Below, one piece after another: positions 21,393 through 27,568 of a stretch of DNA of 34,032 bases (position 1 is its first letter; each line of letters begins with the position of its first letter). A model generated the notes under the pieces. It did no database searches and had not been told where the DNA came from. It saw nothing but the letters and a program-made list of their open reading frames with translations. The stretch is from Planctomycetota bacterium (lineage in GTDB: Bacteria; Planctomycetota; Phycisphaerae; Sedimentisphaerales; Anaerohalosphaeraceae). A program made the position numbers and the translations under genes. The DNA lies in NCBI GenBank assembly GCA_021157685.1, contig JAGGWF010000201.1, positions 1-34,032 of the forward strand, written 5' to 3'.

Positions 21393-21866
21393 ATACTAAG
21401 CACTAAACAAATTCTAAATTTTAAGCATTAAGTCTTAAACAAAAAACAAAGTTTGAAAAAAAGAAAATAAAAAAACTTATGACCTTGAAGATCGAACTCT
21501 TCAATTCGCCAAGGATATTCGTAAATTTACACGAGGGTTTTCGAAAGATTTTGCGGCTTATGAAGATTTAAAACAACTTATTCGATCAAGTGGCTCTGTT
21601 GGAGCGAATTACATTGAAGCAAATAATGCATTAAGTAAAAAAGACTATCGAATGCGGGTTAAAATCTGCAAGAAAGAGGCCAAAGAAAGCACCTATTGGC
21701 TTCAACTGCTGGAAACCGAAAATAATCAAACAGAGTAAGATCGTATCAAACTTGAAAAAGAGTCTGAAGAATTGACCTATATCTTTGCGGCGATTCTTCG
21801 AAACAGTCAGTAGGTTTTAAGATTTTTTTGTTTTGAATTTGTTTATAATTTAGTGCTTAGAATTTA
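21390..21866. repeat. inverted-repeat-bounded unit around a decayed four-helix-bundle gene
   Basis: TAAATACTAAGCACTAAA (21390-21407) versus TTTAGTGCTTAGAATTTA (21849-21866), 17/18 complementary, plus shared inner AAACAAATTC block. Confidence 0.65.
21478..21813 (+). pseudogene. four-helix-bundle protein (S23 / 23S rRNA intervening-sequence protein-like), disrupted
   Basis: Manual translation: YDLEDRTLQFAKDIRKFTRGFSKDFAAYEDLKQLIRSSGSVGANYIEANNALSKKDYRMRVKICKKEAKESTYWLQLLETENNQTE*DRIKLEKESEELTYIFAAILRNSQ*. In-frame TAA at 21736-21738 and no in-frame start (A-rich frameshift at 5' end). Confidence 0.8.
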
Positions 21867-24832: not shown

Positions 24833-24901
24833 ACCATGAAGCTCATGAAGGACATGAAGAAAAATAATTAAAAACTTCATGCTCTTCATGTTCTTCATGG
24901 T
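24833..24901. repeat. 9-nt phased CATGAAG palindrome
   Basis: CATGAAG at 24835, 24844, 24853; inverted CTTCATG at 24875, 24884, 24893; 15-nt AT-rich loop. Confidence 0.9.
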
Positions 24902-24959: not shown

Positions 24960-26045
24960 ATGAAGAGTTACAAGATTGGTGTGATGGGCGGGGACGGAAC
25001 CGGCCCGGAAGTGACCGTTGAGGCGGTCAAGGTCATGGAAGCGGCGGCGGTAAAGTTTGGCTTTAAAGTCGAGCAGACTCCGTATGATTTCGGTGGCGAA
25101 CGGTATATGAAAACCGGTGAAATCCTACCGGACGGCGCTGTTGACGAATTGAAAAAGCAAGACGCGATTCTGCTGGGTGCTATCGGCCATCCGGATGTTA
25201 AACCCGGTATCCTCGAAAAAGGGCTGCTGCTGCAGATGCGGTTTAAGCTGGATCAATACATCAATCTGCGTCCGGTTCGTCTGTTCCCCGGCGTGGAAAC
25301 ACCGATCAAGGACAAAGGGCCCAAGGAAATCGACTATGTCGTCGTCCGTGAAAACTCAGGCGACATCTATACTGGTTCCGGCGGACTGATGATGGCGAAC
25401 ACTCCACACGAAGTGGCCACGCAGACTGCTGTCTATACCCGTTTTCAGGTGGATCGCGCCTTGAAATACGCCTTTGAATATGCCCGCAAGAACGGCAAAA
25501 AAGCCCGCGGCGTTGGCGAAGAAAATACACTCGGCCTGGTTGGCAAGACCAATGTGCTGACTTATATCTATGACCTGTGGGAGCGGGCATTCCATGAAAT
25601 GGGCAAAAAGGACTATCCGGATATCCGCCGGGATTACTATCATGTGGACGCGACCTGTATGTGGATGGTCAAGAGTCCGGAATGGTTTGATGTACTGGTT
25701 ACCGGCAACCTGTTCGGCGATATCATTACCGACTTGGGTGCTATGACGCAGGGCGGCATGGGCATCGCTGCCGGCGGTAACATCAACCCCGAAGGCGTCA
25801 GCATGTTTGAGCCCATCGGCGGTTCGGCGCCGAAGTACACCGGTATGGGCGTGATCAATCCGCTGGCCGCAATCTGCGCGATGCAGATGATGCTTGAAAC
25901 ACTGGGCGAAGAGAAAGCCGCCGCCAAGATTGACGAGGCAGTTCGTTTCGTTACAGCCAATAAACTCAAATCGATGGCTGCAAGACAAATGGGTTACACC
26001 ACCAGCGAAGTCGGCGACATGGTTGCTGAACTGGTCGCTCAATAA
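24960..26045 (+). CDS. leuB: 3-isopropylmalate dehydrogenase
   Basis: YKIGVMGGDGTGPEVTVEAVKVMEAA, VVRENSGDIYTGSGG, TCMWMVKSPEWFDVLVTGNLFGDIITDLGAMTQGGMGIAAGGNINP, SMFEPIGGSAPKYTGMGVINPLAAI. Confidence 0.93.
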   Translation: MKSYKIGVMGGDGTGPEVTVEAVKVMEAAAVKFGFKVEQTPYDFGGERYMKTGEILPDGAVDELKKQDAILLGAIGHPDVKPGILEKGLLLQMRFKLDQYINLRPVRLFPGVETPIKDKGPKEIDYVVVRENSGDIYTGSGGLMMANTPHEVATQTAVYTRFQVDRALKYAFEYARKNGKKARGVGEENTLGLVGKTNVLTYIYDLWERAFHEMGKKDYPDIRRDYYHVDATCMWMVKSPEWFDVLVTGNLFGDIITDLGAMTQGGMGIAAGGNINPEGVSMFEPIGGSAPKYTGMGVINPLAAICAMQMMLETLGEEKAAAKIDEAVRFVTANKLKSMAARQMGYTTSEVGDMVAELVAQ

Positions 26046-26050
26046 ATAAT

Positions 26051-26126
26051 TGCCACAGAGGACACAGAGGTTCACAGAGAAATTGTTTTTATGAAATCCT
26101 CTGAGTTCTCTGTGTACTCTGTGGCA
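26051..26126. repeat. CACAGAG palindrome with about 9-nt phasing
   Basis: TGC-CACAGAG-GA-CACAGAG-GTT-CACAGAG (26051-26079) opposed by CTCTGAG-TT-CTCTGTG-TA-CTCTGTG-GCA (26099-26126). Confidence 0.9.
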
Positions 26127-26147
26127 GGTTTTTTGTCAGAGGTCGTA

Positions 26148-27128
26148 ATGCCGGCTAACTTGACACAGCAGTATAAAAAAGCCGAACAGCGGTATAAGCT
26201 TGCCGGGACTGATGCTGAGCGACTTGATGCATTGGAGGAGATGCTGCGAGAAATCCCTAAGCACAAGGGGACCGAGCACTTGCAGGCCGACCTGAAGAAG
26301 CGACGCAGCAAGCTCAAAGCGGCGATTGAGGGCAGTGGCAAAAAGAGCGGCGAAGTCAAGCATGTCGATGTATTCCATATCCCAAAAAGCGGGGCCGGAC
26401 AGGTGGCGCTCATCGGGATGCCTAATGCTGGCAAAAGCGCGATTCTCGCGGTGCTAACCGGCGCCCATGTTCATGTGGCTGACTATCCGTTTACGACAGA
26501 TAAACCCGCTCCCGGTATGGCCCGGTACGAAGATGTTCACATACAGCTTGTCGATGCTCCGCCGATAACGGCTGACTATGCACCGCCGGGACTGGTAAAC
26601 ACCTATCGCAATGCGGATATCTTGGCCATCGTAATTGACCTGGCGGGTGAGGTGCTGGAACAGATGAAGGTCTGCACGGCGTATCTGGATTCGCACACAC
26701 TGATTCTGGATGAAACAGCAAACAATCCGCTGGCACGCAAGACATTTGTAATCGCGACCAAGGCGGACATCGCACCGGACAGCACGCTGGAGACGCTGAA
26801 GGAATTGACCGAACGGCCGTTTGAGTATATCGAGATTTCGTCGGAAGCCCAGACCGGACTGGACGGATTGTTGCGGCGGATCTTCGAGATGTTGGATATT
26901 GTCCGGGTCTATGCGAAAAAGCCCGGCAAGCCCGCGGACATGACCGACCCGTTTACGCTTAAACGCGGCAGCAATGTACATGATCTGGCCTATCATATCC
27001 ATCGGGAACTGGCTGATAAACTTAAGACCGCTCGCGCCTGGAACTCGCCCAACATCCACGACGGCCAGAATGTCCCTCGTGAACATGTGCTTAGCGATAA
27101 GGAAATTATTGAATTGCATTTTGGATAG
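26148..27128 (+). CDS. DRG/Obg-type GTPase with C-terminal TGS domain
   Basis: GQVALIGMPNAGKSAILAVLTGA, YPFTTDKPAPGMARYEDVHIQLVDAPPI, ATKAD, C-terminal TGS-like KRGSNVHDLAYHIHRELADKLKTARAW. ORF track start 26091 lies inside the CACAGAG palindrome; 26148 (MPANLTQQYKKAE) is more likely. Confidence 0.9.
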   Translation: MPANLTQQYKKAEQRYKLAGTDAERLDALEEMLREIPKHKGTEHLQADLKKRRSKLKAAIEGSGKKSGEVKHVDVFHIPKSGAGQVALIGMPNAGKSAILAVLTGAHVHVADYPFTTDKPAPGMARYEDVHIQLVDAPPITADYAPPGLVNTYRNADILAIVIDLAGEVLEQMKVCTAYLDSHTLILDETANNPLARKTFVIATKADIAPDSTLETLKELTERPFEYIEISSEAQTGLDGLLRRIFEMLDIVRVYAKKPGKPADMTDPFTLKRGSNVHDLAYHIHRELADKLKTARAWNSPNIHDGQNVPREHVLSDKEIIELHFG

Positions 27129-27147: not shown

Positions 27148-27172
27148 CATGAAGAACTTGAAGAACATGAAG
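27148..27172 (+). repeat. 9-nt phased CATGAAG half-array overlapping a start codon
   Basis: CATGAAG-aa-CTTGAAG-aa-CATGAAG at 27148, 27157, 27166. Confidence 0.8.
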
Positions 27173-27568
27173 ACAACAGTGATGTGTGGTGTGGTGTTAA
27201 TGGTATCCAGTTTTTTCTGTGGTTGTTCGAATCGCGTTGGTACGGCAATCAGTTACTATCATGCTACTCGGTCGCAGATACAGCTTGGCATGGACAAGGA
27301 TAATGTTCTGATGATTCTTGAGCCCACGCAAGAAGGTTTGTCATTGCGACAGACGCGTGGGCCGGAGCAATACACACAAGACGGCGTCCATGTGGAAATT
27401 CACTTTTTCCGATCCCATGCCAACTATGATAAAATCCTGACCGATGACGAGTTTACTCCTTATGTTTTTCATGATGGAAAACTTCAGGCCATCGGCTGGA
27501 CAGCCATTGGCGGGCCCAAAACACAGGCACAACCTATCCCGGAACAACATATCACAATTATTCGATAA
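27149..27568 (+). CDS. DUF3192/BamE-like small lipoprotein
   Basis: Signal MKNLKNMKTTVMCGVVLMVSSFFCGC; IQLGMDKDNVLMILEPTQEG, VEIHFFRSHANYDKILTDDEFTPYVFHDGKLQAIGW. Confidence 0.65.
   Translation: MKNLKNMKTTVMCGVVLMVSSFFCGCSNRVGTAISYYHATRSQIQLGMDKDNVLMILEPTQEGLSLRQTRGPEQYTQDGVHVEIHFFRSHANYDKILTDDEFTPYVFHDGKLQAIGWTAIGGPKTQAQPIPEQHITIIR

Follow-up and report, generated by a model that had tools for sequence, protein, structure and literature searches.

A phased palindrome of inverted heptamers between leuB and a GTPase gene in a planctomycetote, and its association with genes for GxxExxY proteins

The short palindrome lying between leuB and a GTPase gene in a planctomycetote contig is probably a gene-less, mobile-element-like array of phased inverted heptamers, of which the cognate protein would be GxxExxY, a predicted nuclease of the PD-(D/E)XK type. 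Arrays of the same layout bracket GxxExxY genes in many phyla, which suggests that they belong to a type of very small mobile element that has received little attention. GxxExxY proteins form a widespread family without a known function, and their link to DNA arrays provides a predicted substrate that changes clade by clade; it also accounts for repeats strewn through the intergenic DNA of many environmental bacteria, which were formerly read as regulator sites. If the enzyme does move the arrays, they would constitute a REP/RAYT-like system that arose around a different nuclease fold.

The palindrome occupies positions 26052-26125 of the window, i.e. of the whole 34,032-nt stretch that was analysed (Table 1), and is lengthened at both ends by GC/GC. 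The original prediction of a phased element at this location is borne out, but one of the left-arm steps measures 10 nt: the steps are 9 and then 10 nt, leaving the third CACAGAG one base off phase. The right arm keeps exact 9-nt steps (CTCTGNG x3), with one mismatch in its CTCTGAG heptamer. An unbiased scan of the entire window for triplets of phased 7-mers detected period 9 only, with none at 8 or 10-19, and the triplets so detected correspond to the CATGAAG palindrome upstream of leuB, to the leuB-GTPase palindrome, and to a lone CATGAAG-type half arm, in agreement with the earlier view that the two palindromes share one architecture. Their cores had been described as unrelated, which is not wholly the case, as CACAGAG and CATGAAG both fit CAYRRAG. 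The ATG at 26091 had been regarded as a false start of the GTPase gene; indeed, it is embedded in the palindrome, and the gene begins at an ATG aligned with 26148 (MPANL...) in 8/8 readable congeners. Arrays of this class generate false starts, and they generate false ORFs as well. A predicted lipoprotein ORF at 27149-27568 takes its start codon and its first residues (MKNLKNMK) from the half arm.

Table 1. Features of the leuB-GTPase interval and related elements in the window
Feature	Position	Strand	Remarks
Sister palindrome, same class	24835..24899	.	CATGAAG x3 / CTTCATG x3; just upstream of leuB
leuB (3-isopropylmalate dehydrogenase), upstream neighbour	24960..26045	+	Family read from sequence; order kept in congeners
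Left arm	26052..26079	+	GC, then CACAGAG x3 at 26054, 26063, 26073
Loop	26080..26098	.	AT-rich, 19 nt; contains spurious ATG 26091
Right arm	26099..26125	-	CTCTGAG at 26099, CTCTGTG at 26108 and 26117, then GC
T6 run	26129..26134	+	Directly past the palindrome; terminator role for hairpin possible
GTPase gene, downstream neighbour	26148..27128	+	True start MPANL
Lone arm CATGAAGaaCTTGAAGaaCATGAAG	27148..27172	+	CATGAAG-type; inverted partner not found

The element is by no means confined to this spacer: a search with CACAGAGnnCACAGAG gave 22 matches in the 2.32-Mb bin, compared with 0 for the reversed control, and this sequence is present in 42 of 59 relatives, in which the control matches total 1. 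Sampling of 199 genomes from across the phylum revealed complete CACAGAG palindromes in 12 of them; the highest number in a single genome was 38 matches, overlapping matches within one array being counted. The loops of copies from the same genome are hardly alike, only slightly exceeding shuffles in similarity, and therefore the copies are not plain recent offspring of one master element. Like MITEs (PMC10969869), the elements are short, have an AT-rich middle and inverted ends, and are intergenic and patchy among relatives; unlike MITEs, they end in phased heptamers, have hardly homologous loops, frequently occur as single arms, and show no target-site duplication that we could see. Plain MITE copies were rejected as an explanation, since homology along the length of a copy fails at the loops. 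In G056, the richest relative inspected, most CACAGAG arms are solitary, without an inverted partner, and the loci L330-L368 of this genome consist chiefly of lone three-heptamer arms. Among G056 copies with downstream flanks aligning at 80% or more, the number of heptamers varies from 2 to 3, and the flanks differ at 14% of positions and the dinucleotides between the invariant heptamers at 61%, an excess that should be treated as a lead only, because the pairs are non-independent and the heptamers were fixed by the arm-finding procedure.

We gathered GxxExxY genes (PF13366/TIGR04256) from the relatives by protein profile, independently of the repeats, and then read their flanks. Perfect 7-mers in 9-nt phase are found at a density of 4.4 per kb at distances of up to 300 nt from these genes, and of 0.73 per kb farther away; for 80 cross-phylum loci, taken from other genomes of many phyla, the respective values are 3.1 and 0.6 per kb. 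Of the 110 GxxExxY genes, 49 have a scored arm upstream and 40 have one downstream, compared with 8 of 333 equally sized background windows; the absolute fractions are biased upward because the core panel was built from GxxExxY loci, and the identical panel was applied to these genes and to all controls. Orientation is fixed: among the 86 labelled loci, 72 have the forward core 5' of the gene, and in 38 the gene is bracketed by a forward/reverse core pair. About half of the GxxExxY genes (54 of 109 rows) have no arm. Two other mobile families of small genes from the same genomes, used as controls, were rejected as partners: genes for four-helix-bundle proteins (23S_rRNA_IVP) share spacers with the arrays, yet arms accompany 0/30 of them, and Y1_Tnp transposase genes likewise yielded 0/30, although their density correlates with that of CACAGAG. 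A search of phages gave no GxxExxY match of the clade sought, and GxxExxY matches were contained in seven plasmid records, all at less than 60% identity.

The fullest unit measures about 450-500 bp and consists of three copies of a core in 9-nt phase, the GxxExxY gene, and three copies of the reverse-complement core. Compact complete units were identified in Burkholderiales (L221), Spirochaetota (L269), Hydrogenedentota (L219) and Marinimicrobia (L223), and further ones in Stieleria tagensis (L296, CACGAAG), Opitutaceae (L292, CACGGAG) and Planctomycetales (L247, CGCCAAG); they terminate in AACC- or TAGCC-type sequence and are located between host genes. In the CACAGAG clade of Planctomycetota, the unit is often followed by another forward arm and another gene, the latter being DUF5677 in L049 (854-1603), while in L048 (95-835) it is HEPN_AbiU2 and lies between arms. 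Arms were also seen to bracket or adjoin a nucleotidyltransferase/HI0074 pair (L056:1743-2463), and all of these small defence-like genes look as if they were travelling as cargo. We also observed GxxExxY genes with differing cores adjoining gatB, in L127, L133 and L148 from Planctomycetota and in L292 from Opitutaceae, and the gatB neighbourhood is perhaps a favoured site.

The core of an arm agrees with the clade of the adjacent nuclease. In the relatives, core labels placed on a tree of their 109 GxxExxY proteins need 29 changes (53.3 when shuffled) and the CACAGAG label 2 (9.7 shuffled), on a joint tree including the cross-phylum loci 29 changes suffice for 86 labelled rows (60 shuffled, minimum 55), and the cross-phylum rows alone need 13 (18.2 shuffled, 0/300), these tree-based statistics, as well as the genome-based ones given below, being inflated because close loci inherit their arms by descent, which was partly controlled. 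CACAGAG arms accompany 9 of the 10 members of the CACAGAG clade, and the upstream arms that were reached only via a protein of this clade read TTTTGCCACAGAGnnCACAGAGnnCACAGAGATATAA, which differs little from the left arm of the palindrome in the window. The original prediction of a class defined by architecture rather than sequence is upheld insofar as many cores occur in one layout (CACAGAG, CATGAAG, CACGAAG, CACGGAG, CGCAGAG and CGCCAAG, plus a GATT-type series), but the core follows the GxxExxY subfamily and is therefore not arbitrary.

Copy density shows the same correspondence, being higher in genomes with the matching clade than in those without it (p=0.0004 for CACAGAG, p=0.0001 for CATGAAG, p=0.011 for CACGAAG), with p>0.05 in all six mismatched core/clade combinations. 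With Y1 and four-helix density entered as covariates, the matching clade retains t=2.4, 3.9 and 2.6 for CACAGAG, CATGAAG and CACGAAG, respectively. The density of CACAGAG additionally tracks that of Y1 (rho 0.65; t = 4.5 in the covariate model) and of four-helix genes (rho 0.54), i.e. it also reflects general mobile load, and Y1 density does not predict that of CATGAAG or CACGAAG. Despite its 22 matches to the search sequence, the bin, which is 88.7% complete, yielded no CACAGAG-clade nuclease. It does have a GxxExxY gene of the CATGAAG clade (G000:C216:6564-6908), found beside CATGAAG arms and an MntA-like/HI0074 pair, at a locus between purL- and purQ-like genes.

In a 45-row alignment of GxxExxY proteins, D61 and K73 are kept, and E71, Q85 and Y89 nearly so (E71-x-K73, Q85-x3-Y89), a combination which we take to be the PD-(D/E)XK plus QxxxY pattern of the Cas4/RecB branch. 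A sequence search of the PDB returned no relative of GxxExxY, and we therefore resorted to a predicted fold (pLDDT 95, pTM 0.87). The solved folds closest to it are those of Cas4 SSO0001 (4ic1), human MGME1 with single-stranded DNA (5zyv), and lambda-type exonucleases, at moderate TM-scores of about 0.5. Judged by this model, GxxExxY is predicted to be a nuclease of the PD-(D/E)XK type whose fold resembles those of Cas4 and MGME1.

Comparison of orthologous spacers in congeners reveals turnover of the arrays. The leuB and GTPase genes are adjacent in most congeners, and the spacer between them, far from being invariant, changes strongly: it contains an ordinary terminator in G005 and G006, a palindrome that has the same layout but a different core (CACGGATT/CGCGGATT type) in G002 and G009, and an intact four-helix-bundle gene in G001 and G008. 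A broken gene of the latter kind (23S_rRNA_IVP), with one internal stop, is present elsewhere in the window, at 21490-21780. Upstream of folE, arms of several cores are stacked: the bin (G000) has a CACAGAG palindrome together with apparent remnants of a CATGAAG palindrome and of CACGAAT-type arms, in G006 and G009 a CATGAAG palindrome is positioned next to CACGAAT-type arms, and G002-G005 have no such element. The spacer 5' of mutL carries a CACAGAG element in G000 only, its close congener G009 being without it; in G004 and G002 (L323, L324) we noticed in this spacer a dispersed palindrome of another type, CACCCCGGATTTGATCCGGGGTCCAGGG ... CCGGATCAAGTCCGGCATGACA. These differences among congeners, seen in the spacers at leuB, folE and mutL, mean that the elements are gained or lost within the time span of a genus and that they pile up on each other. 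Inspection by eye disclosed no target-site duplication in the flanks of the elements or in these three spacers; the latter have diverged too far to offer exact empty sites, and no such site was found among the spacers compared.

From the association, the agreement between core and clade, and the turnover, we infer, as the simplest explanation, that the arrays are mobilised by the nuclease. It would recognise its own heptamers, probably when single-stranded DNA exposes them as a hairpin or cruciform, and would cut at the arrays and thereby spread them; the dispersed palindromes and single arms could then be non-coding, non-autonomous relatives of the gene-bearing unit, and the leuB-GTPase copy may double as a terminator by virtue of its hairpin and T6. 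It should be kept in mind that this reading is weakened by the armless state of half of the genes, the failure to find a target duplication, the non-homology of the loops and the frequency of single arms. More tentatively still, and with a probability that we would put below even, GxxExxY elements might form a class of their own among minimal mobile DNAs, driven by a lone Cas4/MGME1-like PD-(D/E)XK nuclease that recognises a phased triplet of heptamers; its core specificities would be numerous and distributed through bacterial phyla and some archaeal ones, palindromes and single arms would be the non-autonomous forms, and the dinucleotide spacers would be reshuffled by the activity of the enzyme.

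The palindrome could instead operate at the RNA level, as a terminator or as a processing or mRNA-stabilising hairpin serving host expression, in which case the likeness among copies would be due to selection on the hairpin. It folds as RNA with -40 kcal/mol (z = -6.05; 0/200 shuffles equal), T6 follows, and it separates a stop codon from the following start, at a place where two congeners possess an ordinary terminator; a simple terminator scan was silent on it, its stem-loop exceeding the size rules of the scan with the 19-nt loop. We nonetheless consider an RNA-level role, including the RNA processing raised in the original prediction, unlikely as the explanation, and RNA structure as the selected feature was rejected, because pairing is accomplished by the heptamers and the spacers between them pair little across the arms. 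A weak excess of complementary inter-heptamer bases was seen (23/60 versus 18.8 expected, p=0.16), and 7 whole spacers are complementary, versus 3.4 expected (p=0.04). Furthermore, single arms are common, the link to GxxExxY and the core-clade match would be left unexplained, and the Rfam search with the palindrome gave nothing over the gathering score, its best matches being miRNA models far below their cut-offs. Mobilisation in trans by another enzyme, such as a Y1 transposase of the IS200/RAYT type, with GxxExxY as a passenger or as a defence- or toxin-like nuclease using the arrays for self-regulation, would agree with the abundance of Y1 genes and the parallel between their density and that of CACAGAG, as well as with the arms that bracket HEPN_AbiU2 and DUF5677 or adjoin the MntA-like/HI0074 pair, genes which are defence- or toxin-antitoxin-like. 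However, none of the Y1 genes scored has arms, and CATGAAG and CACGAAG densities are predicted by the matching GxxExxY clade and not by Y1, and we regard this alternative, too, as improbable.

Arrays of comparable layout have been reported from Geobacter metallireducens, in which class 2 sites consist of three tandem TCTCCGTS[Y] repeats of about 9 nt and are dispersed, with the two members of a pair on opposite strands and a varying distance apart; Aklujkar et al. 2009 proposed that they are bound by IHF/HU and called them unique to that genome (PMC2700814). By the published consensus, they are a CACGGAG version of the layout of the window element, and by analogy our arrays could be putative binding sites of nucleoid or global regulators. 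This has very little probability in our view: the attribution to IHF/HU was itself a prediction, and a general DNA-bending protein would explain neither the clade-matched cores nor the presence and absence of elements between congeners. The cited report makes no link to GxxExxY and does not group other cores into one class. Our search for heptamer or palindrome repeats retrieved only REP, REPIN and Geobacter reports, and the parts of the literature it covered contained no paper joining GxxExxY with repeats; as far as they show, the DNA layout was known before, and the class and its enzyme had not previously been joined.

The closest functional parallel to the nuclease-array pairing is offered by REP/REPIN palindromes and their RAYT transposases (PMC2817692, PMC3116915); RAYTs have inverted flanking repeats, co-evolve with their repeats, and correlate with them in abundance. 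In that system as in ours, the repeats are extragenic, dispersed and often arranged as inverted doublets, inverted copies border the gene of the cognate enzyme, the enzyme varies together with the repeat, and the abundance of the repeat correlates with the presence of the cognate enzyme, here the GxxExxY clades. This is a parallel and not membership: GxxExxY is a PD-(D/E)XK protein and RAYT a Y1/HUH tyrosine transposase, and the repeats are three heptamers at 9-nt phase as opposed to the single GTAG- or CGTC-tagged stem of REP. The window palindrome lies outside REP/RAYT, the flanked gene of its class being PF13366, the Y1 loci being armless, and neither GTAG nor CGTC tags occurring in the stem flanks within 26040-26140. 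We know of no phased inverted arrays beside genes for Rpn/YhgA-like proteins, which belong to PF04754, as opposed to PF13366. These proteins resemble GxxExxY in being stand-alone PD-(D/E)XK enzymes, which were once annotated as transposases and were later tied to recombination and phage defence (PMC5350276, PMC10327210). The TAACTGA heptamers of Beggiatoaceae, which looked alike at first, were set aside as different in sequence, and the similarity between CACAGAG and the V(D)J heptamer CACAGTG is taken as coincidence.
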